From Enchytraeus crypticus (taxonomy: Eukaryota; Annelida; Clitellata; Enchytraeida; Enchytraeidae): 64,000 nt of DNA. The stretch spans positions 127,001 through 191,000 of the forward strand of contig CAJHZI010000304.1 in assembly GCA_905160935.1 (NCBI GenBank), read 5' to 3'. The notes beneath the pieces were generated by a model that was not told where the DNA came from, ran no database searches, and saw nothing but the letters and a program-made list of their open reading frames with translations. Both the position numbers and the translations under genes were made by a program. Of the stretch, positions 3,853 through 54,919 are shown one piece after another (the stretch's first letter is position 1; each line of letters starts with the position of its first letter).

Positions 3853-5448
3853 CTAAACATCATCATCATCAGCATCAACGTCGTCCTGATCGTCGTCACT
3901 CCCTTCAAAATCATATAGTATACTGAGTGGAGGATACTTGACTCCATTATACTTATCTTTAATCGTCTTTATGGTCATTCTCAACCCCTCCGGTAAATGT
4001 TGCTTTCCATACTCCTGAGCCTCTCTGCTCGCTTTAGTCCCTCCAAGCTCAATTTCACAGTCTCTTTTGATCTCGTCCTTTCTCAGCGCTTCACACAGTA
4101 ACGTGACTGAATCCCGGTTGATCCTTGGACATCCGTACAGATCAACCTCCTTCAGGTTTGGGCACGCCTTTATCAGACTGACCAGTCCATTGTTTCCTAT
4201 GTTGGTGTACTGAGCTGTGAAACGCTGAAGTTTACACTGCTTGAATGTGGCGAGACAGTTGTCTGTGATCTCATTACAACAGCTGATATTTAGATCAGTC
4301 AGGCGTGGGCATTGACTAACCACGCCTCTCACTCCTACGTCACTGACTTGTCTGCTGTAATATTTGTTGATAGGTATTACAGTCAGAGCCTCTAGTCCAC
4401 GACAACCTCGAGCTACTGCTAGGAGAACGTAATCGTGTAGAAGTGTGCAGAATCTCATCGAGAATCTTTTCAGTCTCGAGAAGTTTGATATCTTAAGAAT
4501 TGCTTGACTGGACTTGGCTCTTCCTCTAATTTTTCCACTCAGCTCCAAGACCTCGAGTGATTTACTGAAGGAGGCACCTGTGAGGTATTGCACAGCTTGA
4601 GAAGAAAGTCGTGAACAGTCGATAATGATCAGTTCTTTCAGATTGGGACATCTAGAGGACAGGTGAGCAATACTTTTGCTCTTCAGATTACAGAGTCTGA
4701 TCAGTTTTAACGTCGTTAGTTCATGACCGTATGCTTTCATGAACGATCCAGTAATTCTGCTGTTGAAGACTATTTTTAGATGCCTCAGTTTTGGACAACC
4801 TTCTACAATACTCTTGAACACCACGTCAGATGGTGAGAGTCCAACTACCGAGAAATCCTGCAGGTTCTGTAGTGTCGCCACACCTTCGAATCCACGATCA
4901 GTCAGGATTGGTCCTTTGAGCTCCAGTTGACGTAGATGAGGATTTCGTTCAGTTATCAGCAGTAGAGTGCTGCTCGAGATGTGTAAAGCAAGCGGTCCAA
5001 CGAGTCTGACAGACTTGAGGTTCACACACCCCTTCTCAATCATTTCACCGATATCATCATCGACATCATCACACCCTCCTCTGGTCTCGGGGAACGGTAT
5101 TCCGTTCCACGAATTTCCGCTTAGAATTATCTCTTCTGTACACAGCTCTTCAACGTGGAAAGTTTGCTTCAACCCCCACTGACGCTTAGCAAAGTCTCTC
5201 CATGTAGTACAAACCTTTTCCAACTTGACGAGGTCTGGAGGATTCAGGTGGTCAAAGATGAGATGCATTATGTCACTGTTGAGTTGAAGTATCGGAGCTT
5301 CCTGAACGACCTCACGTGATTTCTCGCTGTTGATTGAACTGATGTCATTGCTTACAGCGCTGATTCTGTTATCTGATGATGCCACTTTTGTTATTCCCAT
5401 AAAACTGAACAAAAATATGAAATACATTACTGGGAAATAATCATCCAT
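3853..5448 (-). CDS. F-box/LRR (FBXL-type) protein, copy 1
   Basis: Predicted substrate adaptor of an SCF-type ubiquitin ligase. It is an intronless ORF of 531 aa. The frame is open upstream to 5568 but only from a TTG; I chose the ATG at 5448 because the paralogs start at the same MDDY/MADY position. From the N-terminus: a hydrophobic stretch (about residues 5-20), a Ser/Asn-rich linker, an F-box (about 54-92; IMHLIFDHL and VCTTWRDFAKRQW), then cysteine-containing LRRs of the Skp2/AMN1 style (CPKLRHLKI, CPNLKELIIIDC, CPRLTDLNISCCNEITD, CPNLKEVDLYGCPRI) to about 465, and an Asp-rich tail of about 18 aa. The hydrophobic N-terminus is unusual for a cytosolic or nuclear F-box protein and may be a membrane anchor. 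The target is unknown. No frame damage is visible. Confidence 0.88.
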   Translation of the reverse strand: MDDYFPVMYFIFLFSFMGITKVASSDNRISAVSNDISSINSEKSREVVQEAPILQLNSDIMHLIFDHLNPPDLVKLEKVCTTWRDFAKRQWGLKQTFHVEELCTEEIILSGNSWNGIPFPETRGGCDDVDDDIGEMIEKGCVNLKSVRLVGPLALHISSSTLLLITERNPHLRQLELKGPILTDRGFEGVATLQNLQDFSVVGLSPSDVVFKSIVEGCPKLRHLKIVFNSRITGSFMKAYGHELTTLKLIRLCNLKSKSIAHLSSRCPNLKELIIIDCSRLSSQAVQYLTGASFSKSLEVLELSGKIRGRAKSSQAILKISNFSRLKRFSMRFCTLLHDYVLLAVARGCRGLEALTVIPINKYYSRQVSDVGVRGVVSQCPRLTDLNISCCNEITDNCLATFKQCKLQRFTAQYTNIGNNGLVSLIKACPNLKEVDLYGCPRINRDSVTLLCEALRKDEIKRDCEIELGGTKASREAQEYGKQHLPEGLRMTIKTIKDKYNGVKYPPLSILYDFEGSDDDQDDVDADDDDV

Positions 5449-5927
5449 TTTTTGTATTACTTTTAAGTATACATGCTTAAACCCTTGTTTGCCGTATTTG
5501 TAACTGAGAAAAAGGAATGAACTTAGGAGAATAACGGGAAGGAATAGGTAAGCCAACCCAGAAAGCAAGCTTTGCTGGTGCCATATACTACATGTAACAA
5601 TTGGAGGATCACGAATTTTTTAAGGGAGGTGGGGGTGAAAATTATTTGGGGCAGTGTCTACATTTTTACTTACGCCTTCGCATCCTTCGGGACAGAGTTC
5701 AGTGTCTACTTACAAACTTTTTACTCTTATATTTTACAATTTTACTACCATCCTCGCTATCTCCGGAACTGAAATTATTGATTAAATGTTTACCGGTGGA
5801 AGTGAAATGGATGATGGCTCCATCAGATCGTGAAGTGTACTTAAAATATTTACTATGAAGAGCCCTTGATTCAAGAAACTATTAATTTGTTGATCTACTG
5901 AGTGCTCATTTTGAAACGTGGAAGCGG
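5449..5927. promoter_or_regulatory. FBXL copy 1 upstream region
   Basis: Conserved in all four units (33503-33960, 44 bp-scale indels; 45150-45625; 54920-55365 before it diverges). The open frame on the minus strand continues from 5448 to 5568 with a second hydrophobic stretch but no ATG; the other units break this frame, so I treat it as 5' flank or UTR. No TATA box or other promoter element can be assigned with confidence. Confidence 0.4.
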
Positions 5928-6420
5928 TAGAGGTGGGTAGTAACTAGTTAAAAGTTAGAATCTAAAAGTTTAACTGTTTCTTTTCGATATATTAAAAATT
6001 AACTGGTGTTGTAAGAAGTACTCAGCAAAATACTTGAAGTAAAATTAGCCTAACTGGTTAGTAAAAGTAAAAGGTACTTTATCAGAATTTTACTTCAGAA
6101 AAAAGTAAAAGTAGGCCTACTCAACAAAAACGTAGTAATTTTAAGTAAAAAGTAAAAGTACTCTAAATTTTAAAGAAAATATATTAAGCTTATACTAGAG
6201 TAGAAAAGTTTTACACGTTCTTAAGTTAGTTAAGTTAGTTCTTGATTTAATTCTAATTAAAAACGGAAACTTTAAACTCTTTAAACTCTGAAGTTTCTGC
6301 ACAAAAAAATATTCGACTCACATGCGCACGCTTATATATAGGCTATTGGATGTTAAAATGTTACATTTGACTTAATTTTGCTTTTACAATTAAATAAAAT
6401 TAACATGGTTAACTCAGACT

Positions 6421-6425
6421 CTCTG

Positions 6426-6457
<32 letters not shown>

Positions 6458-6760
6458 TCAATTGTCCTACCAATCAAGTACGAAGCAGGTCCATGTAGGT
6501 CGAAGCAGGTTTATATTCCTACTCCCATGCTGCCTTCAATACATTCACGCTCCTTCAAGAGCACTCCATCGACTAACCAGTTAATCTATGCTGAAGAGGC
6601 TATGAATTACGCACACCTTAATTTAGCCGACAGCTTAAATAGGAATAATATGACTTCTGAGATGATTTCCCGTTGTCGTTCTCAGATTCTAATTAGTCGC
6701 TTCATACGAAACATGTAGTTTATGAATGGTTCATTCTTCTGAATCTCGAACACAACACAA
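6421..6760 (-). mobile_element. (CT)n-tailed SINE-like repeat inside the hAT block
   Basis: (CT)n followed by GTCCTACCAATCAAGTACGA, then a body containing CTTCAAGAGCACTCCATCGA and GATTTCCCGTTGTCGTTCTC. It is a diverged relative of SINE D in reverse orientation. Orthologous positions are 46575-46830 and 56720-57060, so it inserted before the unit duplication. Confidence 0.5.
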
Positions 6761-7077
6761 CTCAGACTCGTTAATATAAAAATAATCATTGACATATTGG
6801 CAAGATCCACAAAGTATACCTGAAGATTCATGATTTAGGTTTTTATATTTATGCTATCGTAATTAACTAGAGCAAAACTATTTTAAATAAAGTTTATTTT
6901 TTGAATTTTTGATAATTATGTTCTATCACATTCATTTACCAAACCTACTGAATATATAGTGAAATACTGAAAAATCTTTAGGACTACTGAAGATTTTTAA
7001 ATCAGAGTCAAATAAGGCAAACCACAAATCCAAAAGCCAAAAATCTATATGCATAGGCCTATGGGTTATGTACTCTA

Positions 7078-9069
7078 TTTTTAACAATATTTATAATTTC
7101 CAAATAAAAAATCAATTTTTCTAAAACCTACCACTCCCAGTGAAGTTTTAAATGCATTAATGGCTCTCAAAGAAACCAATTCTACAGGACAAGATAAGAT
7201 ACCAAATAAAATTCTTCAACTTTCTGCTTACATTATTGCTGACCCTCTATCCTATAAAATTAACAGTAGTTTTAGTTCAGGAATTTTCCCTTCTTGTTTT
7301 AAAACTGCTAAAGTTATCCCAATTTATAAATCCGGCAAGAGCGATGATGTGCAAAATTATAGGCCAATCTCACTTTTAAATAATGTAAGCAAAATTTTTG
7401 AGAAATTAATGTATAATCGAATTACAGTATACTTAGATAAATTTAAATTGATTTGTGATAACCAATTTGGATTTAGGAAAGGACATTCAACCGTCGATGC
7501 TATATTTAGTAGTCTAAATATGATTCGTTCAAATAAAGGGAAAACCATGCATACAATTGGGGTATTCCTTGATCTTAGCAAGGTCTTCGACACGGTGGAT
7601 CACGGTATACTCTTACATAAACTACAACACTATGGCATATGAGGTTTATCGCTTCAATGGCTCAAAACCTACTTGTCAAATAGATTTCAATATACTGTAA
7701 TAGGACAAACCATTTCAACCATCAAACCAGTTACTGTTGGTGTTCCACAAGGATCTATTCTAGGGCCCTTGCTATTCTTAATATATATCAATGATATCCA
7801 AAATGCATGTCCTGAAATCTCACTTAAACTTTTTGCTGATGATTCTAATGCTTTTATAAACAGTAGCAACCTGACTGATCTATTTTCTTTAGCTAACCAT
7901 ACCAGTTCAAGATTAAATCATTGGTTTCAAAAAAATCGCTTAACGGCAAACTCTAAAAAATATGCTTATATTGTTTTCTTCCCTAACAAAGAGGATGAAG
8001 ATTATATAAAAGGAGAAAAACTTGAGATAGTGCTTGATAAAAATCCAATTTCTAGGGTAAAACACATAAAGTTCCTTGGAATAGAAATTGACGAGCAATT
8101 GTCCTTTAAAAACCATGTTGATACCGTTGTGAAGAAGATAAAAAGTGCTAACTGTTTATTATTCAATCGTAGAGACAATATTACCATGCCTTGCCGTAGG
8201 AATTTATATTTTCCAATGATCCACTCTCGCATTAGCTACTGCATTGAAGTGTATGGACACGCTTCCTGGAACATCTTGCAGCCCTTACACATTGAATGTA
8301 ACAGAGTACTAAGAACGTTGCAAGGAATACACCGCTTTAGTAATGTCAAAAATTTATACACTTCTTTCAATATTCTGCCAATCCATTTATTACATAAATT
8401 TTGTTCAGCGAAACTTATTCATAAGTGTCTATATAACAGATCATCCTCATCCACAGCAATGGCAAACATTTGTTATCTCAATCATGCTCACTACCCCACA
8501 AGACTATACGGATCCAGCTATCTTTGTAAGAAATCCTCTGCCACTTTTTATAAATCATATGTCAATGATGCTTGTACAAACTGGAACGAAATTCCAACTT
8601 CCATTAGAAACATCAGCTCTCTCCCAACATTCTCTTATTAATACAAACATTATTTGCTTAATAGCTGGTAATCTTCCACTTCTAACCAAACACTCGTACA
8701 TTTTATGATAATTTAGCTAACTTAATGTAAATTAATTTAAATTTTCTTTTTTTCAATGATTGTATATCGGACTCTCTCAGAGTCTTTTGCCGGAAAACGA
8801 TACTGGAGTAAAAACTGGGTGTTCAACCGGATAGGATGCCATGCGTCCTCTTTGATGGCCTAGTTTTTATTCAATTTATTATATATATTTTTTGTTTTAG
8901 TTTTATTTGTGAACTTACAGGACGTATTTCTGCACTTACATGACGTATTGCACTTATTACTCAGATTCTGATGACGCCTATTTAATTTTTTTCATGCGTT
9001 CATTGTTGTGATTACTAGGTGAAATTTTGTGAAAATATAACATATTTCTCTCTCTCTCTCTCTTTCTCC
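7078..9069 (+). mobile_element. Jockey/CR1-like LINE insertion specific to unit 1
   Basis: Units 3 and 4 run continuously across this point (near 47330 and 57387), while unit 1 is split by about 1992 bp, which defines the insertion by paralogous empty sites. The insert is a 5'-truncated non-LTR retrotransposon with a reverse transcriptase ORF (7097-8671), then a 3' region with TTTTGCCGGAAAACGATACT and AT-rich sequence, then a (CT)n tract at 9044-9066. No clear target duplication was identified. Confidence 0.8.
7097..8671 (+). pseudogene. Non-LTR reverse transcriptase (Jockey/CR1 superfamily), broken
   Basis: One frame runs from 7097 to 8671 with two in-frame stops: TGA at 7640-7642 (after LQHYGI) and TAA at 8639-8641 (before YKHYLLNSW). 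Motifs in order: GQDKIPNKIL, VIPIYKSGK, NYRPISLLN, NQFGFRKGHST, VFLDLSKVFDTVDH, GVPQGSILGPLLFLIYIND, and the catalytic LFADD followed by SNAF. The catalytic aspartates are kept (FLDL and FADD). The endonuclease domain and the RT N-terminus are missing because of 5' truncation. With only two stops and no obvious frameshift it is one of the younger LINE copies here, and it agrees with the unit-1-only insertion. Confidence 0.88.
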
Positions 9070-10291: not shown

Positions 10292-11929
10292 TTTAAATTT
10301 ATCAATTCAGTAATTAAAATATTGCTTAGATTCTGATGATTGATAAGGCCCACATGCAAACACTTGCGAAAAGTCAACACAAAGAACCTAGGCCTACATG
10401 CATGATTAATTATCGTAGTGTAGAAGAGAAATTGCTGCAGTGCACGTAGGCTTGACTTGATGAATGGCTTTAGTTCTTGTCGACAATCAGCTAAAAGTTC
10501 GCAAAGTTTTTAATAAACTGATTTTTCAAAATTTATTATACATTGCTTAAAGCATGATTATTTAAAAAGTCGTAGCTAAAATAAATAGCAGAAGTTAGAC
10601 TACAGAAATATTGAGAAAATTTAAGCAACACATACCTATTTATCGTAGTGAAGAAGAGAAATTGCTGCAGTGCTGGTATATATCAAATGAAAACTCGTCG
10701 TATTCCTGTCGTCGATCGTCTCTATCAGCTGAAAATTCTTGAATGAAGTTAATAAATAATTTGGCTTTATTCTAGGGAGACCAACATAAAACATAAAACA
10801 TAAAGTCATAAAACATAAAGATTACGTTCAAACTTTAACCCAATCAAAATGAACGTTCTAGAGTTCTCAACCAATCAGAGATCAGGGCGCTACGATAAAA
10901 CTGACAATGAAACTCATAAAATCCTGCGTAAAAGTCATTAAGTCATCGTTCACGTGACGACGCTACAGCTGATAGTCGTTTGCTTCCAAATCATGCATTG
11001 AGAACAATGATATATCCTAGAAAATTATTAATTGTTCCTTAAATTGACATTTGTATTGGCATTTACCCTATAGAAGCTAATGATTACATACCACTGAAAA
11101 GCATTTTTGCATTTTTTATCGTCTAATACGAAAGATAGAGAACTATGTTTTATTTCAAAAAGAAACACCTTGAAAGCGATTTTACGCATTTAACATTAAA
11201 CTGCTAGAATCGACAATGCAAAAATCAACATTTAACATACCGAGTCCGACCTTCACCTCTTATTGTCTGTTTACTTACTTCCTATTGGCTATATCGTTCA
11301 ACCTTGACAAGGAATCGTCACACTTTTACGGGGAATAACATACACTGTAAGCCAGTACACTGATATTTCACCCAAACACGCGGTAGGCCAATTAACCGAC
11401 TTCCATTGTTAGTCAATTACGACGACAATAACAACGCAATTGACAAAAAAGGCCAGTAGAACTTAAAGTAGGCCCCTAGACCCCTGGTAAAAATTCCTGC
11501 CTACATTCTCTTTTACGCTTCATAAAATAATTCATTACGCCTAATATAGATTCTTATCATCTGATGTGGTTTCCCTACTATTAGGAGCGGGTCCTTCCGA
11601 TCCAAGAAGTTTTTGAAGTAGGGACCAGAATTTTTCTTGAAGGTGTTCACATTTTTAACTTTAAATCATAAGATATTCTTATATCTTCTTGCCTTTTTCC
11701 TTCAGAAATAATCTGACTAGCTTTTTTAGTTTTTCTCTTAGTTGAACTTTAGTATGTGCGGGGTTCAAATCCTAGGCTCGCCCGTCACTGACATCGTTTT
11801 CGAGTGAGGAAACTGACGTTAACATTTGCTTTTACCAGCTTTTAGTCGTTCAGACGTTCAACTGTTTCTTTAGTTCATTTTTTTTATCTAGCAACATCCG
11901 TAATTTAAACTATAGATCAATAGACGGTT
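10093..11929. other. Conserved non-coding block shared by the four units (unit 1)
   Basis: Contains (GA)n at 10257-10287, paired GAAGAAGAGAAATTGCTGCA words near 10425 and 10650, CCAATCAGAGATCAGGGCGC near 10871, TTCACGTGACGACGCTACAG near 10949, and CTTCCTATTGGCTATATCGT near 11278. Counterparts are 36190-38240, 48464-50400 and 58465-60290. No ORF is conserved among the four copies. It could be the body of an old transposon or the ancestral intergenic DNA of the repeated unit. Confidence 0.55.
11748..11850 (+). mobile_element. SINE family B fragment
   Basis: Starts at AGTATGTGCGGGGTTCAAAT, just before the B-box, and continues through CACTGACATCG to TTAACATTTGC. The A-box half is missing. The same truncated insertion is at 60105-60215 in unit 4 but not in units 2 or 3, which links units 1 and 4. 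Confidence 0.7.
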
Positions 11930-13429: not shown

Positions 13430-14036
13430 GCTAAATAACTCTGAGAAATCAGATAATTTGATTATTGAAATAGATCAGCACATATTTTCCATCATTTCGA
13501 ATGGAAATGACTGCACTTCAAGCTACAATTAGCAGAATATAAACGTGACATGTTCTCTATTGCTTTAATAGAGAGCATTTTACGGCGCCAGCAGCATGCC
13601 TGCATTCAACATGTACTAGAAAAATCTTATTTGAGAACATTCGATCATATTTACAGAACTATAACTCTCCCGTTATTACGCTAAAGACATTCACATGAAA
13701 TATCTCTAATGTTTGGTAAAATTGGCGGCTGGTCAAGTCTTCAACTTTTAAGAACAATGGTTGATAACTCGTTACGATTCTACTGTGAAAAGTATTTGTC
13801 CTCGATCGTTTATGTATTGTACAGTACTTATTGTATTTCGCTTTACAAAATTCTATGTGAGAAATATTATATTAGCCAACAGTAAAACATTTATTAATTA
13901 TTATGTCCTGTATTCTAGTTTGACTTTCACATTGATATTCACATTCGAAATTAAGGTGTTTTTTCTAAAATTAAAATTCAAACCCAAAATTAGATTAAAC
14001 TAAGAATTCGAAATGCACAAATTGAATTGCACACAA
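13430..14036. other. Unit 1 right border; dispersed repeat and unexplained sequence
   Basis: 13620-13790 matches 30560-30720 in diverged form (shared words such as GTTTGGTAAAATTGGCGGCT against GTTTGGTAGAATTGGCTGCT). No supported gene. This is where homology to the repeated unit ends and the inserted or unique 17 kb begins. Confidence 0.45.
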
Positions 14037-14700
14037 ATGAACACTATCCAGCTACAATCTGGTGCATTTGCACAATAATATCTCCACAATTGGACGAATA
14101 ATCTCCGATAAAAGTGGGACTGGTAGAGATTTTAAGGTATTTTTCACTATAAAACACACATTTCGAAGTGCACAGAAATAAGTGAAGATAGAATCTGTGC
14201 ACCATTTTAATTGCACACAAAATGAACACTATCTACCTACAACCGGGTGCATTTGCACAATAATATCTGTACAAATGGCCGAATAATCTCCAACAAAAGT
14301 GGGACTGGCAGAGATTTTCAGGTATTTTTCACCATAAAACAGACATTTCGAAGTGTACAGAAAAAAATGCGGATAGAATATGTGCACTATTTCAATTGCA
14401 CACAAAATGAACACTATCCACCTACAAATTGGTGCATTTGCACAATAATATCTCCACAATTGGACGAATAATCTCCAATGAAAGTGGGACTGGCAGAGAT
14501 TTTCTTGCAATTTTCACTGTAAAACACAAATTTCGAAGTGCACAAAAATAAGTGCAGATAGAATCTGTGCACCATTTTAATTGCACACAAAATGAACACT
14601 ATCCAGCTACAATCTGGTGCATTTGCGCAATAATATCTCCACAATTGGCAGAATAAACTCCAACAAAAGTGGGACTTGCAGAAATTGTCAATCATTTCTT
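14037..14700. repeat. 185-bp satellite, about 3.6 copies
   Basis: Units start at 14037, 14222, 14407 and 14592, an exact 185-bp period marked by ATGAACACTATCCA, TGGTGCATTTGCACAATAAT and AGTGGGACTGGCAGAGATTT. It lies about 150 bp downstream of the stop of the MULE/Ulp1/PHD relic. Tandem subterminal repeats are known in Foldback and some MULE-type elements, so this may be one terminus. No inverted counterpart was seen on the far side. Confidence 0.9.
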
Positions 14701-14843: not shown

Positions 14844-15961
14844 TTATATGGCATTTTTACAATAACTACAGAGCCATTTTTTCCTATTATGAACACCCAT
14901 AACATTGCATTCCTTCTTTGCACAGGCAAAATGAAAGTAATTGTCACAAAGGGAGCAGACTAGCCATCGTTCTAGGTTAAGCGTATTGGGGCGCAAGTCT
15001 TCTTTATTTCTGCACGTGCACCATCTTTCAGTATCTTTATTTTGAACGAGAGTATTCCAGATTTCCATTCTTGCAGCTTTCATGCTGACAGCATCTGTTG
15101 GAACTCCTTCAATGTTAAGGCCTTCAGCAATATATTTGCCAAACAAAGATATCAATATTCCGCAGTTCGATCCATCCCTCTGCATAGGGTGCTTGATATT
15201 TAACGTTGTAAACTTGCCACCATGGCGAAATATATCGCTCAGATACAATGAAAGATATTTATTCCATTTGGCCGTAAAGACTTGACAGTTTTCTCAAGTG
15301 TTATTTCATGAGCCACTGTATCAAGTAAGGAAACTGTTTTATTTACAATATCTAGTACAAGAGCTGTGAATTGGCCGCCTGAACGCATTGGAATATATAT
15401 AATATTAACTTTTTCCCAATTTACACCATCCATGGAGGACACAGGTTTCAATGAATTCACATTGCGCCAATCTGCAGCAGTCCACATGGAGCACTTCTCT
15501 GAATGAAAGCAATCTAGAAAACCATAAACAACATTTGCTTCCAACCATTCCCCTTCAGGCAAAACAGATTCTTTGTCATTCAGGGTCATTCGTCTACCAC
15601 TCCGAATCATGAATTCCAGCTTTAAGCTAGGCTCTTTCACTGCTTGAGTTTTGCTTGCAAAATCAGTCGTAACTGCTTGAGTCGCACCATCCACAGTTGA
15701 AATGCTTATGATACTTGCACTTGCTAAACACTTGGCTTGCACAACAGCAATTTGCTCGTTACTGTCACTTGATTCAAAATTCCAGGTCGGAACTTCATAA
15801 GATATTGGATTTACACTAGCAATACTGGCATTACTAACAGAATTAGGAACAACACTTGATGTTGCAGATAAATTTATTTCTACACTGGACGAGACTACAC
15901 CTGCAGTATTGTCACAATTATGGGACGTAATGAAGATAGACGATGACGAAGAATTACTTTA
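14844..15961 (-). pseudogene. Ulp1-like protease (C48) plus PHD finger, MULE-associated
   Basis: In order on the minus strand: a Ser/Thr/Asn-rich linker (open from about 15961), an Ulp1-like region (LPEGEWLEANVVYGFLDCF, then VNIIYIPMRSGGQFTALVLD and VSLLDTV), a frame change near 15245, then MQRDGSNCG carrying the catalytic Gln and Cys, and finally a PHD-type zinc finger (WCTC, WLVCSLCDNYFHFAC, WLCSYC) ending at 14844. The Asp of the triad (LLDT) and the Cys are present. Where Ulp1 enzymes have the catalytic His in an HW motif, this copy has QF, so it was probably inactive or altered before the frameshift. Ulp1-like domains are known passengers of MULE transposons. It was probably fused to, or adjacent to, the transposase at 16046-17878. 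Confidence 0.7.
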
Positions 15962-16045
15962 ACATAATGTTTCCGTTGCAGCCGTGGAAGGCTTCACATA
16001 TTTCGCACGTCCCCCATTTTTCTTCTGCTTCATGAATATCAGTGC

Positions 16046-17878
16046 CTAAGCCTCGTCTCTTTGTAGGTCTTGACTCAGCAAGTTTGAAACGTAGTAGACG
16101 ATTTTTTTATATTTTATATTTTCACGTTGTTTACTTATGAACTTTGTGACTCTAATTCTGACACCTGAACTGCTGTTTCTGATGTGGCGAGATTTCACAT
16201 TGTTAAACCAATTCTCAACATGACAATTGGAAAAAGCAGATTTTAAATCTTTTATATCAAATATTTTTGCAACAGCCATGCACCACAAAGGAAACAAAGA
16301 CAGCCAGTGACGTATTAAGTAGCCAGTCAAGGCTTCTGAATAGAACTTATTTAACTTCTTTGAACTGCCAATACAATCAATTTCAATCTCATTGATCTTC
16401 TGTGTCTGACATCTTCTTTCGTTAAAATATTTCAACCAAGGTGCACTGGCACGAATAGCTTTCTGCTGCTTCTTTCCCACATTTCTATCACTGACATTGT
16501 GAAGGTCACTGGCACGATCAATCTCATCAGACTCGGTTCCTTTAATTTTCCAATTCTTTATGTTACTAAGCAACTGCTGTTTAGCCTTTTTAACTATCTT
16601 CGTCTCAAACTTTTCTCCAAAAACATTGAAAATTAATGAAAGAGTATTTATAGCATTAGGAAAAGTCTTGCTATACTGAAGAAGAACAAAGCTATGCAAA
16701 AATTCTCTCTTATATACATAATTGAATTTCAATTTGGCCAAATACCTAGCCACAATATGTACCGCATGGTTTGAACAAATAAATAGACCAACTGTCTGCT
16801 TCCAAACTTCATTGCATACTATTGATTCATACATATTTTGCAAATAGCTTTCAATATCACTGGTTCGGCTGAAGGAATGCAAAACTGAATGAATTAATGC
16901 CCAGGAAAAGTCTGTAACGACTAATTTGCATGGAAAATTCGATGAATGGACACCCTGTTTATTTAATCTATTGAAATCCATTCTGAAACTGAACAACATG
17001 TGGCTGATCATTTCAGTCTTATGTTCAGAACAGATCATTCGCAAACAGGAACGCAGGGTTCATTTCTTCTTATATTTGTCAAAACAAGAGAATATAAAAG
17101 CATTCTTTTGTCAATGCCTTGCCATTTCTTAAAAATTGAGCCTGTCGCATCCAAATAAAGAATTGGTGCATGTCCATGCAGCAACTGCAGTTGATCACGC
17201 ATATGCATTATGACAAAGAAAGGATTATTTCCCCTCTTCTGTATGAAACCCTTAACATCGACACTGTCATTAGTTTCCACATACAACCGCTACATGAGAT
17301 CCAATTCTATATCAATAACATTATGCAACTTCTCACTGGATGCAATTATAGATTTCAATCTTCTCAAAACTGCGATTGATTTCGGTTTGTTGAAATTTCC
17401 AGCAGTCAATTTACTCATATCAGACTTTTCGAGTAACTCTTCATAAACTTCCTCAGGCCGTCCAGTCCATCTTCTAACATTTGAGACAGATATTTTTGTT
17501 CCTCAGTGTTGGTTCGGCGGAATTTTATTGGCTCATCAACATGATTCTCGTCACCTCTACTTTTAATGTTACAATACACGCATTCTTTGAAGTCTTGTTT
17601 TTTATCGATAACAATTTCAAATTTTCTGCAATTGCGAAAAGAGCAGTGAGCATATTGTCTGATGAATGGACAATCTGTCTTTCTACTGTTGAAAGCGCTA
17701 ATTCTATAATATCCAAATGAAACCACACAATTACATTTCTTCTCAATTACATTTGACATGTAGTCCCTCCAGACGTTGGTAAGTCGCAGACGATTTGAGA
17801 TTCGGGGAGGCATTACTTTTTCCCATTCACTTAGGGAGATAATATATCTATCATCCGACCATTCCAAACTCAATGATT
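16046..17878 (-). pseudogene. MULE-superfamily transposase (DDE type), frame-broken
   Basis: Three minus-strand frames join head to tail: 17878-17450 (Cys/His-rich N-terminal region with CNCVVSFGYYRI and CPFIRQYAHCSFRNC), 17450-17035 (one TAG near 17305; contains LYLDATGSIFKKW) and 17044-16046. DDE-like acidic residues are visible: Asp in LYLDATGS, Asp in LVVTDFSWALIHSVL, Glu in HVENWFNNVKSRHI; CSNHAVHIV matches the C..H motif between the second and third. The order matches MULE/NOF-like transposases. There are two frame changes (near 17450 and 17040). A good acceptor, TTATCTATTTTAG, precedes 17878, so the N-terminus is probably encoded by upstream exons (19763-19900, 20467-20905). Confidence 0.72.
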
Positions 17879-17927
17879 CTAAAATAGATAAATAATACAA
17901 ATTAAAATGAACTTCTGCAATTGCCAT

Positions 17928-18439: not shown

Positions 18440-18815
18440 TCTTCTTCTTCAGGGCACTGCCTAGTGGCAGGTTCAAGGTACATAATCATACTAAAAGTCT
18501 GCTTTCTCGCTTCATAAGAGCACTCCTTAGGTCAACAAGTTAATCCCTTCGCAAAGTCTAAGTCTTATGCATACCTTACGTAGCCTATAGTTTGAGAAAA
18601 AGATGGCTTCTGATGTGGTTTCCCGTTGCCTTTCTCAGTTAGGTGGATTAATTACCATTTAATCCTGGAGGAAAATATTTCATGGTGAGGTGGGTCCCCT
18701 CTTGCCATCCTCAGTTCCTTTAGTCGCCTCTTACGTACACGCGGCAGATTGTTTGCGGTTGCCCTGTTTTGCAGTGGTCCAACCACATCCGAGCACATCA
18801 CGGGGAATATATACA
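18438..18815 (-). mobile_element. SINE family D, near full length
   Basis: The reverse complement runs from a CCGTGATGTGCTCGGATGTG head (close to the CCCGTGTTGTGTCCGGG consensus), through TACGTAAGAGGCGACTAAAG and AAATGGTAATTAATCCACCT, to TGTACCTTGAACCTGCCACT, then CAGTGCCCTGAAGAAG. Other copies: 46170-46545, 51580-51930, 63359-63565. It is about 370 bp, long for a SINE, without a clear tRNA head. Confidence 0.75.
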
Positions 18816-31903: not shown

Positions 31904-33502
31904 CTAATTATCATCATCATTATCATCGTTTTCATCATCATCTTGATCGTCGTCACTCCCTTCAAAATAGTAGCGTGTTTTGAGTGAAGGACACTTGGCT
32001 CCATCATACTTATCTTTAATCATCTTTGTGGTCATTCTCAACCCCTCCAGTAAATGTTGTTCTCCATACTCCTGAGCCTCTCTGCTCTCTTCAGTGCCTC
32101 CAAGTTCAATTTCGCAGTCTCTTTTAATCTCGTCGTTTCTCAGCGCTTCACACAGTAACGTGACGGATTCACGGTTGATCTTTGGACATCCGTAAAGGTC
32201 AACCTTCTTTAGGTTTGGACACGCCTTTATCAGACTGATCAGTCCTTTGTTTCCTATGTTGGTGTACTGAGCTGTGAATCGCTGAAGTTTACACTGCTTG
32301 AATGTGGCGAGGCAGTTGTCTGTGATCTCATTACAACAGCTGATAGTTACATCAGTCAGGCGTGGACATTGACTAACCACGCCTCTCAACCCTACGTCAC
32401 TGACTCGTCTACTGTAATAATCATTGATAGGTATTACAGTCAAAACCTCTAATTGTCGACAACCTCGAGCTACTGCATGCAAAAGGTCATCGTGTAAAAG
32501 GCTGCAGAATCTCATCGTGAGACTTTTTAGTCCAGAGAAGTTTGATATCTTAAGAATTGCTTGACGGGACTTGGCTCTTCCTCTAATTGCTCCGCTCAAC
32601 TCCAGGACCTCGAGTGATTTACTGAAGGAAGCACCTGTGATGTATTGCACTGCTTGAGAAGAGAGTAGTGAGCAGTCGATCAGCACCAGTTCTTTCAGAT
32701 TTAGACAACGGGAGCAAAGGTGGGCTATGCCTTTGTTCCTCAGGCTGTAGAGTCTAATCAGTTTTAACGTCGTTAGTCCAGGACCGAATGATTTCATAAG
32801 CGTTCCTCCAACCCTGCTGTTGAACTCGATCGTTAGGTGAGTCAGCTTTGGACAACCTTCTACAATTCTCGTAAACCCTGCTTCAGATAGGGAGAGTCCC
32901 AGTATTGAGAGAACCTGCAGGTTCTGCAGTGTCGCCACACCTTGGAATCCGTGATCATTCACGGATATGATGTTGAGCTCCAGTTTACGTAGATGAGGAT
33001 TTCGCTCAGTTATCAGCAGTAGAGTACTGTTCGTGATGTCAAATGAAAGCGGTCCAGCGAGTCTGACTGACTTGAGGTTCACACAACCCTTCTCAATCAT
33101 TTCACGAATATCATCTTCGGCATCCTCACACTCTCCTCTATATGCTGGAAAGGGCGTTCCGTTAACCATCCCTCCGTTTAGATCTATCTCCCCTGTCCAC
33201 ATCTCATTCAGGTCGAAAGATTGTTTCAACTTCCACTGACGATTAGCAAGGTCTCTCCAGGTAGTACAAACCTGTGCCACCTTGATGAGGTCTGAAGCAG
33301 GAAGACGGTCAAAGATGAGATGCATCATGTCAGGGTTCAGTTTAAATATCGGAGCGTCCTGAACCTGACATGTTTCCTCGCTGTTGATTGAACTGACGTC
33401 ATTGCTTGCAGCGCTGATTCTATAATCTGATGAGTCCATTGTTGTTATTCCGATAAAACTGAACAAAAATATAAAATGCACTACTGTGAAATAATCATCC
33501 AT
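31904..33502 (-). CDS. F-box/LRR (FBXL-type) protein, copy 2
   Basis: Intact intronless ORF of 532 aa starting at an ATG (MDDYFTVVHFIFLF). It has the same layout as the other copies: hydrophobic N-terminus (residues about 4-20), F-box at about 53-91 (DMMHLIFDRLPASDLIKV and VCTTWRDLANRQW), LRRs (CPKLTHLTIEF, CLNLKELVLIDC, CPRLTDVTISCCNEITD, CPNLKKVDLYGCPKI), and an acidic tail GSDDDQDDDENDDNDDDN. Its N-terminal half is closest to pseudogene copy 3 (shared AGPLSF and SILGLS/SILGYS, EGC/RGC LRR). Predicted role: substrate recognition in an SCF ubiquitin ligase; substrate unknown. Downstream are GAT/ATC-rich codons that make the tail length unstable. Confidence 0.9.
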   Translation of the reverse strand: MDDYFTVVHFIFLFSFIGITTMDSSDYRISAASNDVSSINSEETCQVQDAPIFKLNPDMMHLIFDRLPASDLIKVAQVCTTWRDLANRQWKLKQSFDLNEMWTGEIDLNGGMVNGTPFPAYRGECEDAEDDIREMIEKGCVNLKSVRLAGPLSFDITNSTLLLITERNPHLRKLELNIISVNDHGFQGVATLQNLQVLSILGLSLSEAGFTRIVEGCPKLTHLTIEFNSRVGGTLMKSFGPGLTTLKLIRLYSLRNKGIAHLCSRCLNLKELVLIDCSLLSSQAVQYITGASFSKSLEVLELSGAIRGRAKSRQAILKISNFSGLKSLTMRFCSLLHDDLLHAVARGCRQLEVLTVIPINDYYSRRVSDVGLRGVVSQCPRLTDVTISCCNEITDNCLATFKQCKLQRFTAQYTNIGNKGLISLIKACPNLKKVDLYGCPKINRESVTLLCEALRNDEIKRDCEIELGGTEESREAQEYGEQHLLEGLRMTTKMIKDKYDGAKCPSLKTRYYFEGSDDDQDDDENDDNDDDN

Positions 33503-36660: not shown

Positions 36661-38240
36661 TATATTAAAGCGAGAGAGAGAGGAGAGAGAGAGAGAGATA
36701 GTAAAGGAGAGAGAGAAAATATTTTAATTGTTCATTTCAAGAGTTAAAATATTGCAGAGATTCTGAAGTTTGATAAAGCGGACATGCACAAAACTTGCGA
36801 AAGTCAACAAAGGCACCTACATACATAGGCCTAATTGTCGTAGTGAAGAAGAGAGATTGCTACAGTGCACGTAGCCTAGGCTATACTTGATCAATAGCTT
36901 TAGTTCTTGCGTCAGTCAGCTAAAAGTTCGTAAAGGTTTTTAACAACTGATTTTTCAAAATTTATTATAGGCCTACATGCTTAAAGCGTCATAATTAGAA
37001 AGTCATAGCTGAAATACATTGCTGAAGTTAGACTACAGAAATCTTGAGAAACTTGAAATAACACTTACCTATAGTCCTATATCGTCGCGAAGAAGAGAAT
37101 TTTTGCAATGTTCGTATATCAAATGAAAACTTGTCGTATTGCTGTCGTCAATCGTCTGTATCCGATGAAAATTCTTGAATGAAGTTTTACAAATAATTTG
37201 GCTTTATTTCTTGGGAGATCCAGAGTCATAAAACATAAAGATTACTTTCAAACTTTAACCCAATGAAAATGAATATTCTAGACTTCTCAACCAATCAGAG
37301 ATCAGGGCGCTTCAATAAAACTAACAATGAAACTCGTAAAATCCTGCGTAAAAGTCATTAAGTCACCGTTCACGTGACGACGCTACAGCTGATTGTCGTT
37401 GTTTCGAAACAATGCATTGACCACAGTGATAAACACAAGAAAAATTATAAAATGTTCCTTAATTTTAAATCTGTATTGGCATTTTCCCCGTAGAAACTGA
37501 TGATTACATACCGCTGGAAAACATTTTACATTTCCTATCTTCTCATAAGAAAGAAACACTTTGAAAACGATTTTCTGCTTTTAAAATCAAAATCTAGTAC
37601 CGATAATGCAGAAACAGCATTTGTTTATTAACACACTGCCTCCGGCCTTCATCTCTTATTGTCTGTTTACTTATTTTCTGTTGTCTGTATCGGTCAACCT
37701 TGACAGGGAATCGTCACACATTTGCGGTGAATTAACAGACATAGTAGCCTAAGCCAGTAAGCCTATGCCGTTATTTCAACCATACCCATGGTAGGCCAAT
37801 TTACCGACTTCCATTGTCATTATATAACGACGACGGTAACAGCGCAATTAGAAAGAAAGACCGGTCACTCTTCAAGTAGCTCCATAGTAAAAATCCCTGC
37901 CTTCGTTCTCCGTTACGCCGCATAAAATAACTTCACATGTCTAATATGGATTCTGATCATCTGATGTGGTTTCTCTACAATATTTGTGTTCCAGGAATTT
38001 CTTGAAGAAGGGGCTCGAATTCTTCTTGAAGGTGTTCACATTCTTGACATGAAATCATAGGTTATTCTTATATTTTCTTACCTTTTTCCTTCAGAAATAA
38101 ACTGACTGCCTTTTTAGTTTTTCCCTTAGTTCAACTTTAGTCGATCAGAAGTTCAACTTTTTCTTTAGTTCATCTTGATGGCGTAGGCTGTCAGACAACA
38201 TCTATAGCCTAAACTATATATAATGTCTCGGTAACGAAAT
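36661..38240. other. Conserved non-coding block, unit 2
   Basis: Counterpart of 10230-11929. It keeps CCAATCAGAGATCAGGGCGC (about 37292), TTCACGTGACGACGCTACAG and the paired GAAGAAGAG words. No ORF conserved with the other units. Confidence 0.55.
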
Positions 38241-43559: not shown

Positions 43560-45149
43560 CTAATCATCATCATCATCATCGTCACCATCATCCTGATCGC
43601 TGCCACTCGGATCAGGATCATCATCGGGCATTGCGAGTGGAGGACACTTGGCTCCATCAAGTTTATCATTAATCATCTTTGTGGTCATTCTCAACCCCTC
43701 CAGTAAATGTTGCTCTCCATACTCCTGAGCCTCTCTGCTCTCTTCAGTGCCTCCAAATTCAATTTCACAGTCTCTTTTGATCTCGTCGTTTCTCAGCGCT
43801 TCACACAGTAGCGTGACAAATTCACGGTTGATCTTTGGACACCCGTAGAGGTCAACCTTCTTCAGGTTTGGACACGCCTTTATCAGACTGACCAGTCCAT
43901 TGTTTCCAATGTTGGTGTACTGAGCTGTGAACTGCTGAAGATTGTTGTGCTTGAATGTGGCGAGGCAGTTGTCTGTGATCTCATTACAACAGCTGATATT
44001 TAGATCGGTGAGGCATGGACATTGATTAACCACGCGTTTCACGCCTACGTCACTGACTCGTCTGCTGTAATATTTGTTGATAGGTATTACTGTCAGAGCC
44101 TCTCGTTCACGACAACCTCGAGCTACTGCTAGTAGAAGGCCGTCGTGTAGGAGAGGGCAGCATCTCATCGTAAGTCGTTTTAGTCTAGCGAAGTTTGATA
44201 ACTTAAGAATTGCTTGACGAGACTTGGCTCTTCCTCTAATTGTGTCACTCAACACCAGGACCTCCAGAGATTTGCTGAAGGAAGCACCTGTGAGGTGTTG
44301 CACTGCTGGAGAAGAGAGGTGTGAACAATAAATGATTATCAGTTCTTTCAGATTGGGACAACGTGAGGACAGGTAAGCTATGCCTTTGTTCCTCAGATTC
44401 ATACAGGTGATCAGTTCTAGTTTCGTGAGTTCAGGACCGAACGATTTTATGAACGATCCTCTTATGCCGTTGTTGAAGATAATGGTTAGGTGCGTCAGCT
44501 TTGGGCAGCCTCTTACAATTCTCATGAACCTTGCATCAGATTTGGAGTATCCAAGTATTGAGAGAACCTGCAGATTCTGTAGTGTCGCCACACTGTGATA
44601 CACGGTTTCATCCGCGGACATAAGGTTCATTTCCAGTTGTCGCAGATCAGGATTGCGTTCAATTATCAGCTGTAGCGTTCTCAACGCAGAAAGAAAGCGG
44701 TCCAGCGAGTCTGGCTGATTTGAGGTTCACGCATCCCTTCTCAATCATGGCGAGAATATCATCATCGACAGTGTCCACGCACTCTTCTGTGTAATCTGGC
44801 CGCTGCGTTCCGTTCGCCCATCCGCTTAGACCTTTTCCTGTCCACAGCTCATCCAGGTCGAAAGACTGTTTCAACCTCCATTACCGCTTAGCAAGGTCTC
44901 TCCATTTAGTGGAAACCTTTTCTACCTTGATGAGGTCTGAAGCAGGAAGACGGTCAAAGATGAGTGCATCATGTCAGTTTTGAGTTGAAATATCAGAGCG
45001 TCCTGAACGACCTGACGTGTTTCCTCGCTGTTGATTGAACTGACGTCATTGCTTGCAGTGCTGATTCTGTTATCTGATGAGTCCATTGTTGTTATTCCGA
45101 TAAAACTGAACAAAAATATAAAATACACTACTGTGAAATAATCATCCAT
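43560..45149 (-). pseudogene. F-box/LRR (FBXL-type) copy 3, disrupted
   Basis: Alignable to the intact copies from MDDYFTVVYFIFLF (ATG at 45149) to an Asp-rich tail at 43560. Three lesions against copy 2: loss of one base near 44970 inside the F-box (just after DMMH), a CAG-to-TAA stop at 44881-44883 (between AKR and WRLKQ), and a net loss of about 5 bases near 44685 that shifts the frame at the first LRR. The downstream 374 codons are open and keep LRRs such as CPNLKELIIIYC and CPCLTDLNISCCNEITD. It may be silent, or it could yield a truncated LRR-only product from an internal start; I consider it a pseudogene. Confidence 0.88.
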
Positions 45150-48463: not shown

Positions 48464-49297
48464 AGATTAAATTATTCCTTTTTGCACATGAACAGTATTA
48501 GTTAGGCCTACTTTTAAAACTACAACTTACACAAATTAACTATTGTTATAGTAAGCGACTGACTGTCTCTAGAAAGCAGACTCAGTTTATGAATATATAC
48601 CTTGGACCTACTACTTGGTATAATAAAGCGAGAGTGAGAAAGAGGAGAGAGAACATTTAAATTTATCATTTCATTGCTGAGATTCTGAAGTTTGATTAGC
48701 CCACATGAACAAAACTAGTAAAAGTCAACACAAAGCACCTACAATGCATAATTATCGTAGTGGAGAAGAGAGATTGCTGCAGTGCATGTAGGCTAGACTA
48801 TCTGAATAGCTTTAGTTAAAATATAGGCCTATCTATCATTGTTGTAGCCAATCAGCTAAAAGTTGTAGGCCTAAAGGTTTTAAAAAACAGATTTTTCCAA
48901 ATCTATCATAAATGCCTAATACTTCGTTATTAAAAAGTCATACCTGAAATAAACTGCTGAAGCTAGGCTACAGAAATGTTGTGAAAATTGAAGCAAAACT
49001 TACCTATAGGCCTAGTTATCGGCGTGAAGAAGAGAAATTGCTGCAGTGCTCGTATATCAAATGAAAACTTGTCGTATTCCTATCGTCAATCGTCTGTATC
49101 CTGCGTAAAAGTCATTAAGTCACAGTTCACGTGACGACGCTACAGCTGGTAGTCGTTTGCTTCCAAACAATGCATTGAACACAATGATAGATAGGCCTAT
49201 ATTTTAAAAAATTATAGCTTTTTCCTTAAATTGACCTTGGTATGGGCATTTACCCCGTAGCAGCTGATGATTACATATCACTGGAAACCATTTTAAC
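48464..49297. other. Conserved non-coding block, unit 3 (left part)
   Basis: Matches 10093-11100. Contains TTCACGTGACGACGCTACAG near 49125. A segment of about 140 bp containing CCAATCAGAGATCAGGGCGC, kept in units 1, 2 and 4, is deleted here (junction near 49098). Confidence 0.55.
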
Positions 49298-51579: not shown

Positions 51580-51935
51580 CCTGTGTTGTGCACGGGTGTG
51601 GTTGGACCACTGCAGAATAAGGCAATCGCAAACCATCTGCTGGGTGAATGTAAGAGGCGACTAGGGCAGGAGCTGAGGATGGAAGAGGAGACCCACCTCA
51701 CCATAAAATATTTTCCCACAGGATTAAATGGTAATTAATCCATCTAACAGGGACAGACAACGGGAAACCACCTCAAAATCCATACTTTTCCCAAGTTTTA
51801 GGCTAAATACTGTAGGTATTGACTTCGAGAAGGTATTAACTTGTTAATCTAAGGAGTGCTCCTATGGAGCGAGAAAGCAGACTTTGAGTATAATGTACCT
51901 TGAACCTGCCACTTCGCAGTGTATTGAAGAGATAC
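51580..51935 (+). mobile_element. SINE family D copy, unit 4
   Basis: CCCTGTGTTGTGCACGGGTG head, AATGTAAGAGGCGACTAGGG, TAAATGGTAATTAATCCATC, ATGTACCTTGAACCTGCCAC, CAGTGTATTGAAGAGA end. Nearly complete; no (GA)n expansion. Confidence 0.75.
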
Positions 51936-52621
51936 ATGTCATGTATGGCGTTCACTTACAAGGGATTTAACATACACGGGAAAGAAAGCATCTTATAAGT
52001 ACATGAATGGATTTTTCAGGTAAGGCAAAATAACAGGTATGTTCTTTGTAAGATTTTAGGCCTATACGTAAAATTATGAATCATATATTCTGCATATATA
52101 CATATATGCAGAATTTTTGCATAAATTCTGCATGTCTCTTACATCTTTGGCATACGAATCACCAAAGAAAGCTATAGGCCTACACTTATATATAATTATA
52201 CATGTATATATCAGCTATAGCTTGAAAAAATGTGGTTTCTGAGGTGGCTTTCTTTTTCGAGCTTAGTCGCCCCTCGTGAAAAGTGCAGTTAATGTTTAGA
52301 CTATTTTTCAGTCTCCCGGTCACACAGGAATAAATAGATATACTTAGGTTAACGTTTTGGCATGTGCTTCAGTTATAATTTAGAGATTAAGAAACAAATC
52401 TCATTTATTTATTATATAGCCATCTTCTCTACAGGAAAAGCCAAATTATTCCATTACTAATAGCCTTTCCCGACAGATTATAATATAAAGTTCAAAGTAA
52501 CGTTGATGTGAGATATTATTTAAAATTTATTCCCAATAAGATAATAGTCTAATTAGTTAAACATACAATCATTAGTTTAATTAGTTTAACATTCATTCAT
52601 TAGTTTAATTAGTTAAACATT
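51936..52621. other. FBXL copy 4 far downstream flank
   Basis: 52090-52370 is the diverged SINE D/E-like piece matching 2990-3260. 52540-52621 has a local tandem repeat of TTAGTTTAATTAGTTAAACA (about three units), single in unit 1 (near 3460). Confidence 0.5.
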
Positions 52622-52905
52622 AGGGCAGGGAATATGGCGTAACGGTTAGAGTGTTCGCCTCGGATACAAGTGGCCTGGGTTCAAAGCCCAGGTCAGTCAA
52701 CAAATGACGGATATCCCCTTGGGCCCATGGAAGGTTAATCTTGTATCAGAGATTGCTGCCGTTTGACGCTATCAATAGCAAAGATATGATTAACCATGGA
52801 AAGGATTAATAATAACCTGCCAGGAAACTGTAAAGCAGTCTCGAAGACCGGATACCGGCTATGACACTGCTATAGAAATTGTCGGAGGTTAGAATTATTA
52901 TTATT
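52622..52905 (+). mobile_element. SINE family F (tRNA-like), unit-4-specific insertion
   Basis: A-box-like ATGGCGTAACGGTTAGAGTG, B-box GGGTTCAAAGCCC (about 52677-52690), body to a TTATTATT end. Unit 1 reads TTAGTTAAACATTCAATCAC without interruption (3466-3485), which defines the 284-bp insert. The head has good tRNA-like spacing (about 75 bp). Only one copy in the window. Its GGTTAATCTTGTATCAGAGA body resembles ancient conserved SINE cores, but I cannot confirm this. Confidence 0.8.
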
Positions 52906-53323
52906 CAATCACAGTTTTACTGAAATTACATTCAATAATTGTTCGCTAATTTACTGCAGATGTAATTAAGACAACACTGATCCGTTTGGCTGAATGTAAT
53001 TTAATTCAATACAAGAGCAAACGCAATGGGTAGTAAGCGACAAAATGTTAACCAAGAAAGTTATCATACTCTTAGGCCATTATTTGACAACATGTGCTTA
53101 TTTATTTGTTAATAATACAGTTCACAGTGCAAATTAATTATAGGAAAACTTTTAAAAGTTATACGAAATGTATCTACATAAAATTGGACCTAGCAAACAA
53201 TTAGAAATTTAAAATGATAGCGCAGGAAATCAACGTAGTCCTATTGTAATAATCCTGATGTATTGAGAGTAGCTACAAAACAGTCTGTATCGCATCCTCA
53301 CTTCAATAGTCGGAATCTGAAGA
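52906..53323. other. FBXL copy 4 proximal downstream flank
   Basis: 53135-53323 is almost identical to 3660-3850. Probable 3' UTR by position only. Confidence 0.5.
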
Positions 53324-54919
53324 CTAAACGTCATCATCATCAGCATCAACGTCGTCCTGATCGTCGTCACTCCCTTCAAAATCATATAGTATACTGAGTG
53401 GAGGATACTTGACTCCATTATACTTATCTTTAATCGTCTTTATGGTCATTTTCAACCCCTCCGGTAAATGTTGCTTTCCATATTTCTGAGCCTCTCTGCT
53501 CTCTTTAGTGCCTCTAAGTTCAATTTCACAGGCTCTTTTGATCTCGTCGTTTCTCAGCGCATCACACAGTAGTGTGACTGAATCCCGGTTGATCCTTGGA
53601 CATCCGTACAGATCAACCTTCTTCAGGTTTGGACACGCCTTTATCAGACTGACCAGTCCATTGTTTCCTATGTTGGTGTACTGAGCTGTGAATCGCTGAA
53701 GATTGCTGTGCTTGAATGTGGCGAGACAGTTGTCTGTGATCTCATTACAGCAGCTGATATTTAGATCAGTCAGGCGCGGACATTGACTAACCACGCCTCT
53801 CAACCCTACGTCGCTGACTCGTCTGCTGTAATATTTGTTGATAGGAATAAGAGTCAAAGCCTCTAGTCCACGACAACCTCGAGCTACTGCTAGCAAAACG
53901 TCATCGTTCAGGAGATGGCAGAATCTCATTGTTAGACTTTTTAGTCTCGAGAAGTTTGACAACTTAACAATTGCCTGGCGGGACTTGGCTTTTCCTCTAA
54001 TTTTTCCACTCATCTCCAGGACCTCAAGTGATTTGCTGAAGGAAGCACCTGTGAGATATTGCACTGCTTGAGAAGAGAGTCGTGGACAGTCGATGATTAT
54101 CAGTTCCTTCATATTGGGACAACGAGAGGAAAGGTGGCCAATACTCTTGCTCTTCAGATCACAGAGTCTGTTCAGTTTTAACTTCGTTAGTCCAGGACAG
54201 AATGCCTTCATAAATGATCCAGTAATGCAACTGTTGAAATCGATCGTTAGGTTCCTCAGTTTTGGACAGCCTTCCACAATTTTCTTGAACCCTACGTCAG
54301 AAGGTGTGAGTCCAAGTATTGAGAGAACCTGCAGGTTCTGGAGTGTCGCCACACCTTGGAATCCGTGATCACTCACGATTGGACCGATGATTTCCAGATG
54401 ACGTAGATGAGGATTTCTCACAGTTATCAGCTGCAGCGTGCAGTTCGAGATGTCTAAAGCAAGCGGTCCAGCGAATCTGACTGACTTGAGGTTAACACAA
54501 CCCTTCTCAATCATGCCACGAATATCATCATTGACATCCTTACAACCTCCTCTGGTCACTGGGAACGGTATTCCGTTCCATGAACTATCGCTAAGAATTA
54601 TCTCTTCTGTACACAGCTCTTCCAAGTGGAAAGTTTGCTTCAACCCCCACTGACGCTTAGCGAGATCTCTCCATGTCGTACAAACCTGTTCCACCCTGGC
54701 CAATTCTGAAGCAGGCAGGTGGTCAAAGATGCGGTGCATCATGTCAGGGTTGAGTTGAAATATCGGAGCGTCCTGAACGACCTGACGCGTTTCCTCGCTG
54801 TTGATTGAACTGACGTCATTGCTTGCAGCGCTGATTATGTCATCTGATGATGCCATTGTTGTTTTTTCGATAAACCTGAACAAAAATATAAAATACACTA
54901 CTGTAGGATAATCAGCCAT
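53324..54919 (-). CDS. F-box/LRR (FBXL-type) protein, copy 4
   Basis: Intact intronless ORF of 531 aa starting at ATG 54919 (MADYPTVVYFIFLF). Hydrophobic N-terminus at about 5-17, Ser/Asn linker, F-box at about 54-92 (DMMHRIFDHLPASELARVEQ and VCTTWRDLAKRQW), cysteine-containing LRRs to about 465 (CPKLRNLTIDF, CPNMKELIIIDCPRLS, CPRLTDLNISCCNEITD, CPNLKKVDLYGCPRI), basic linker, then the tail GSDDDQDDVDADDDDV identical to copy 1. Between the F-box and first LRR it shares TEEIILS and GIPFP with copy 1 but not copies 2-3. Likely SCF substrate receptor; substrate not inferable. Confidence 0.9.
   Translation of the reverse strand: MADYPTVVYFIFLFRFIEKTTMASSDDIISAASNDVSSINSEETRQVVQDAPIFQLNPDMMHRIFDHLPASELARVEQVCTTWRDLAKRQWGLKQTFHLEELCTEEIILSDSSWNGIPFPVTRGGCKDVNDDIRGMIEKGCVNLKSVRFAGPLALDISNCTLQLITVRNPHLRHLEIIGPIVSDHGFQGVATLQNLQVLSILGLTPSDVGFKKIVEGCPKLRNLTIDFNSCITGSFMKAFCPGLTKLKLNRLCDLKSKSIGHLSSRCPNMKELIIIDCPRLSSQAVQYLTGASFSKSLEVLEMSGKIRGKAKSRQAIVKLSNFSRLKSLTMRFCHLLNDDVLLAVARGCRGLEALTLIPINKYYSRRVSDVGLRGVVSQCPRLTDLNISCCNEITDNCLATFKHSNLQRFTAQYTNIGNNGLVSLIKACPNLKKVDLYGCPRINRDSVTLLCDALRNDEIKRACEIELRGTKESREAQKYGKQHLPEGLKMTIKTIKDKYNGVKYPPLSILYDFEGSDDDQDDVDADDDDV

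Follow-up and report, generated by a model that had tools for sequence, protein, structure and literature searches.

Are the four related F-box/leucine-rich-repeat (LRR) copies found on the minus strand of one stretch of the Enchytraeus crypticus genome working genes or leftovers of a repeat that multiplied passively? The stretch, called the window here, is 64,000 nucleotides long and comprises positions 127,001 to 191,000 of contig CAJHZI010000304.1 (C221) in assembly GCA_905160935.1. The genome searched for relatives was 524 Mb in 802 contigs. We consider it probable (roughly 0.7) that the copies belong to a lineage-expanded FBXL-type family of complete transcription units, which was spread by duplication at the DNA level, has a mosaic ancestry and has kept its middle LRRs different.

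Four copies in duplicated units

The copies are named c1, c2, c3 and c4 and have their window end coordinates at 3853, 31904, 43560 and 53324, respectively. The initial annotation had described four minus-strand F-box/LRR copies in duplicated units, and this was confirmed by open reading frames (ORFs), Pfam matches and a self-comparison of the window. In the self-comparison (rows of at least 250 bp), the units share pieces of up to 3.1 kb at 73-93% identity, which is far above chance. F-box and LRR models pass the Pfam cut-offs in c1, c2 and c4. LRR models are above the cut-off in all four listed ORFs, and the longest ORF of c3 has LRR matches only. As had been proposed, three copies are open (c1, c2 and c4) and one is dead: c3 has a frame shifted by one base and a stop codon, both within the F-box or immediately behind it, and a gap of five bases near 44684. 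Among solved structures, the nearest relatives by sequence are FBXL17 (6.5e-13) and FBXL2 (1.5e-10). By homology, the copies are probably FBXL-type substrate adaptors of Skp1-cullin-F-box (SCF) complexes.

The listed ORFs begin in the intron or 5' untranslated region. In c2 and c4, 21 residues of the listed ORF precede the conserved start, and in c1 these are 56 of 571 residues. The conserved start reads M-[A/T/D]-S-S-D. It was established by alignment, in which the open frames of 18 loci line up there, at M[ATDP][SPL][SP], and the preceding residues do not (L021 was missed by the filter used, and c1 was placed by hand). In c1, the conserved ATG is GTG, and an in-frame ATG five codons upstream is absent from the other copies. 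One member of the family, L012 (C412), has a tail extended by repeated acidic segments and reaches 667 residues.

After correction of the starts, the start-to-start spacing of the copies is 28.0, 11.6 and 9.8 kb; only the first value differs from those given before (28.1 kb). The first gap had been attributed to a 17 kb insertion. This is reasonable since the stretch between 13.4 and 30 kb has no match of at least 250 bp to the other units, except for a 360-bp repeat, although a loss elsewhere would give the same picture. The 360-bp repeat is no fixed part of the unit since it is found at 18446, 46173 and 51571, the first in the orientation opposite to the other two. It is perhaps the short interspersed element (SINE A) that had been placed in every flank, a claim that would then not hold. 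Scans of the window for Rfam families and tRNA genes gave no match.

The flanks had also been said to carry hAT ends. A hAT-end-like 13-mer is present at 5929, 45627 and 56226, which is the same place in c1, c3 and c4, but is degenerate in c2. The window contains four matches to it compared to 0.61 expected, and none of 100 shuffles reached four. The shared position of the 13-mer in three copies and the presence of the family on 31 contigs could mean that a DNA transposon (hAT or other) carries and mobilises the gene. However, the 13-mer lies inside the intron, homology continues past both of its sides and the limits of homology vary between copies, so we regard a transposon-borne gene as very unlikely.

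A family dispersed across the genome

The family is not the purely local tandem array that was first supposed. The counts that follow come from one protein query and are lower bounds. There were at least 77 matches, merging to at least 51 loci on 39 contigs. At least 41 loci, on 31 contigs, had a match of at least 45% identity, and 28 loci were single matches of at least 1300 bases. The contig of the window holds two further copies, a broken one 4.7 kb to the left and an open one 49 kb to the right of the window edges, and at least 35 loci lie on 30 other contigs. The birth-and-death family that the initial annotation had suggested, with a putatively lineage-specific number of copies, is supported.

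Twenty-four loci were read, 20 of them fetched from the genome and four from the window. In 19 of them, the frame stays open for 476 codons or more after the conserved start; the other five (c3, L018, L026, L027 and L028) are broken. Two of the open loci, L022 and L023, have tails that do not resemble the others and may be shifted. By a hand count, the 41 family loci contain 28 of the 63 F-box domain matches in the genome. Only two Skp1 matches (a lower bound) were above the cut-off, and no nematode-like parallel expansion of Skp1 was seen among them. A search of a viral contig collection found no relative of the family. A distant relative with 33% identity and an open frame in one coding stretch, L033 (C356:1448500-1452000), is a possible sister family.

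A promoter-like block and a putative non-coding first exon

Each flank had been described as containing a conserved block. The block is present, as a remnant in c3, and is best read as a promoter together with a non-coding first exon; promoter, transcription start and splicing are all readings from the sequence alone. It aligns in 18 of the 24 loci read. ATTGG motifs (reverse CCAAT) recur in it, together with a start-like stretch and a putative exon of about 110 bases that ends in a splice donor. The donor is GT in 15 of the 18 aligned blocks and GC in c4, and none was found in L027 and L022. All four window copies have the predicted acceptor, TTTGTTCAG, shortly before their start codon. It is not kept in the L013-L016 clade, and another acceptor must serve there. 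The introns predicted for c1, c2, c3 and c4 are 5231, 3610, 3898 and 4164 bases long, respectively. Thus, the copies are intronless, as had been stated, in their coding part but not at the level of the predicted transcript.

A genome search with a composite block query gave 39 rows at 29 places, 28 of which are located 0.2-5.2 kb upstream of a family locus on the same strand. Judging from these positions, the block belongs to the F-box/LRR family. The 29th place (C776) has no coding match within the 4.6 kb examined and keeps pieces of the 3' flank of the unit, which gives it the appearance of a relic. The genome search showed no block at 13 of the 41 loci; a weak block was recovered by alignment at least at C324 and C381:188926. 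In the copies on C221, C414 and C600, part of exon 1 recurs about 200-300 bp downstream of it (query bases 178-222 at 88-93% identity), perhaps as an alternative first exon.

The single coding exon could suggest a retrogene family, in which a processed FBXL copy was amplified by retroposition. Dispersed copies, however, keep the promoter and the intron between exon 1 and the coding exon, which argues for duplication at the DNA level. With the promoter/exon-1 block and intron at 28 family loci, retroposition was rejected as the way in which the family spread, and we give the retrogene explanation little credence. A founder whose coding part had introns would still be compatible with one early retroposition before the spread.

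Purifying selection on the coding exon

The coding exons of the open copies are under purifying selection. The ratio of nonsynonymous to synonymous divergence (dN/dS) was 0.45 over eight copies of the window's clade and 0.43 over four copies of a second clade, and about 60% of sites had a dN/dS near 0.14. The own-branch values of the open copies c1, c2 and c4 were 0.56, 0.38 and 0.33, which is not the value near 1 in all of them that would be expected of a non-functional repeat. The difference from 1 was clear for c2 (p = 7e-5) and c4 (p = 1e-5). The dead c3 had an own-branch dN/dS of 0.52 (p = 0.051), as expected if its death was recent. Clade, site and branch estimates used the corrected start. 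Pairwise values were 0.36-0.53, with the first 21 codons before the corrected start counted as coding. All dN/dS values and site posteriors are approximate since the genes recombine, while the tests, including the branch tests, assume one tree.

These values bear on whether the units are a passively amplified repeat, multiplied by unequal crossing-over near transposons, with the ORFs as relics. Such an origin would account for the five broken loci among the 24 read, the many protein-match loci with stops and the transposon fragments within units. It would not account for own-branch dN/dS of 0.33-0.56 in the open copies, for 19 of 24 loci being open or for the maintenance of start and splice sites. 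For c2 and c4, neutral evolution was rejected; for c1, the rejection is nominal only. We find a passive repeat improbable.

Positive selection among the copies is equivocal. M2a was no better than M1a (twice the log-likelihood difference, 3.66), and M8 improved nominally on M7 (8.40, two degrees of freedom). A posterior above 0.8 was reached at three sites.

Mosaic copies and a divergence peak in the middle LRRs

The copies are mosaics. They group as c1 with c4 and L017, c2 with L010 and c3 with L011, the last two partners being on other contigs. Yet the intron of c1 is about 97% identical to that of L010 over about 4 kb, and 87% identical further upstream. A reverse transcriptase of the long interspersed element (LINE) type, in two ORFs at 7160-8641 of the c1 intron, is common to c1 and L010 and absent from c4. 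Hardly any differences separate c4 from L017 in the last 1.1 kb of the intron and the first 100 coding bases. At the coding start, divergence rises from 0.8% to 16.8% in c4/L017 and from 3.9% to 18.2% in c1/L010, and in neither pair did any of 200 permutations give a break as large. The near-identical 5' non-coding stretch is about 1.1 kb in both pairs. At the 3' end, c1 and c4 share 98-99% identity between about +1400 and +1700.

Among 36 pairs scanned, c4/L017 and c1/L010 were the only ones to be near-identical and then divergent at the coding start. The strongest break was elsewhere in the other 34, often in the 3' flank or far upstream, and intron divergence was ordinary in most pairs (0.15-0.40). 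c2/L011 is a weaker third case (K of 0.079 compared to a dS of 0.52). Both c2/c3 and c2/L011 look mosaic upstream of the coding part, with their strongest breaks at -656 and -674, and were not counted as start breaks.

Between the two clades, synonymous divergence (medians, 32 pairs) is 0.17 in codons 2-40, 0.33 in codons 41-76, 0.74 in codons 77-160, 1.25 in codons 161-300 and 0.69 in codons 301-440. Four-fold-site divergence is 0.16 (0.08-0.27) in codons 2-76 and 0.55 (0.44-0.64) in codons 161-300. It appears that the copies exchange their ends and that the middle part, the probable target-recognition region, remains different from one copy to the next. Since the site tests were equivocal, this synonymous peak in the middle LRRs is the better evidence for kept diversity.

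Several observations weigh against the explanation that we prefer. Only 10 of the 18 blocks have TATAAA at the aligned place. None of these belongs to a window copy: c3 has lost that part, and the others have ATAAAG or a similar sequence there. The own-branch dN/dS of c1 is only nominally below 1 (p = 0.029) and is not significant since four tests need correction. In the tree of codons 2-76, one clade falls within the other, though not significantly (approximately unbiased test, p = 0.11); as separation of the clades is not rejected, the evidence is suggestive. The identical flanks of c4 and L017, which are on one contig, could be a product of the hybrid assembly. A close donor of the c4 exon was sought in the assembly and none was found (best match 87%), so exon replacement is not supported and homogenisation of the 5' region fits better.

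Another possible explanation is that sequence constraint, rather than conversion, could cause the low 5' coding synonymous divergence, with the mosaics being a few chance crossovers. Codons 2-40 are low within as well as between clades (medians 0.10, 0.17 and 0.35). However, in codons 41-76 the divergence between clades A and B (0.33) is about that within A (0.35) but reaches 0.91 to a third group, and the breaks in non-coding DNA are abrupt. We, therefore, hold constraint to be a tentative alternative to homogenisation by recombination or conversion, possible but not likely.

Features of the window

The coordinates of the copies and their upstream parts are given in Table 1. Within the 17 kb stretch in the first gap, three minus-strand ORFs at 15239-17927 had no Pfam match at E 0.05; we presume from their resemblance that they are a decayed DNA transposon. 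They adjoin a tandem array at 14014-14690 (185-bp unit, 3.7 copies, 86% matches). At 60298-60431 and 62175-62290, stretches of 66 and 58 bp, respectively, are each present as two exact tandem copies, so these duplications are recent. Elsewhere in the genome, five COX1-like fragments outside the mitochondrial contig (on C361, C424, C796, C373 and C166) are probably nuclear copies of mitochondrial DNA.

Table 1. Positions of the F-box/LRR copies, their predicted upstream exons and the shared intron stretches in the window.
Feature	Coordinates	Strand	Remarks
c1 coding exon, open	3853..5400	-	Starts MGITKVASSD at private ATG; ancestral ATG is GTG
c1 promoter-like block and putative non-coding exon 1	10627..10879	-	Donor GT at 10635; predicted intron 10635-5405
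c2 coding exon, open	31904..33439	-	Starts MDSSD
c2 promoter-like block and putative exon 1	37060..37299	-	Donor GT at 37068; predicted intron 37068-33459
c3 dead copy	43560..45086	-	Frameshift, stop, gap; LRR part still open (374 residues)
c3 putative exon 1 remnant with donor	48994..49101	-	Promoter part mostly missing
c4 coding exon, open	53324..54856	-	Starts MASSD; F-box at about residues 32-69, LRRs, aspartate-rich tail
c4 promoter-like block (repeated ATTGG) and putative exon 1	59031..59290	-	Donor GC at 59039; predicted intron 59039-54876
c1 intron stretch about 97% identical to L010 (contig C401)	5400..9477	-	Holds the LINE reverse-transcriptase insertion that c4 lacks
c4 intron stretch with first 100 coding bases, almost the same as in L017 (C221:240165)	54756..57697	-	

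Proposed mechanism and comparison with known systems

In the mechanism that we propose, each unit would have its own promoter, a non-coding exon 1, an intron and one coding exon that encodes the F-box, the LRRs and an acidic tail, and duplication at the DNA level would spread the units in tandem and to other contigs. The F-box would bind Skp1, as is established for this family type, so that the protein joins an SCF ubiquitin ligase, and the LRRs would pick substrates for destruction. Ectopic recombination or gene conversion may keep homogenising the 5' non-coding region along with the N-terminal/F-box end and the 3' end. The middle LRRs, in contrast, would remain old and different, probably through selection for different substrate specificities. 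Most likely, the copies carry different specificities that are kept apart by selection in the middle LRRs, with the rest shuffled or homogenised. A more specific version, which we find rather doubtful, is a repertoire of constant and variable parts. Here, the 5' module, F-box end and tail would be kept alike, members would swap promoters and F-box ends, and the ancient pool of middle LRRs would be an immune-like or anti-parasite recognition set.

The arrangement of an N-terminal F-box followed by LRRs is the same as in the SCF adaptors FBXL17, FBXL2 and SKP2. The potworm family differs from them in its many recent one-coding-exon copies, its acidic tail and its low identity to any solved FBXL. 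Large, fast-changing F-box families with birth-and-death evolution are described for nematodes and plants in the available parts of two reports (PMC12680543, PMC12062965), and the many recent paralogues found here are similar. The nematode system, in which Skp1 is expanded (available part of PMC12680543), differs in that the potworm is an annelid with two Skp1 matches and equivocal positive selection. Some nematode F-box proteins are antidotes of toxin-antidote elements (same part of PMC12680543), and the copies could be antidotes as well. No second open frame of more than 52 residues common to the four units was found in a search for a unit-linked toxin gene, and we consider antidotes extremely unlikely.

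For the divergence peak, a model is provided by the red/green opsins, in which conversion homogenises ends and introns while selection keeps the functional region different (available part of PMC3924837). There, as here, divergence is low in the flanking intron and high in the functional part of the exon. The potworm family, in contrast, has dozens of copies, partly on different contigs, and conversion would be deduced from one assembly.

F-box expansions are, thus, of a known kind, and the one in E. crypticus is apparently unreported in the literature searched. The available main text of the E. crypticus genome paper (PMC8460440), to which the text search was confined without the supplements, names other gene expansions and does not contain the term "F-box". 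Literature searches for Enchytraeus F-box genes and for annelid or lophotrochozoan F-box expansions, judged by titles and the starts of abstracts, found no report.

Annotation of such genes would have to be corrected to include a non-coding first exon far from the coding part and a start codon further downstream. The divergence peak marks the LRR stretch with apparently kept differences and makes the hypothesis of diversifying adaptors testable. If our explanation is true, F-box genes would have expanded rapidly in an annelid as well, as they have in nematodes and plants, but without the Skp1 expansion of nematodes.

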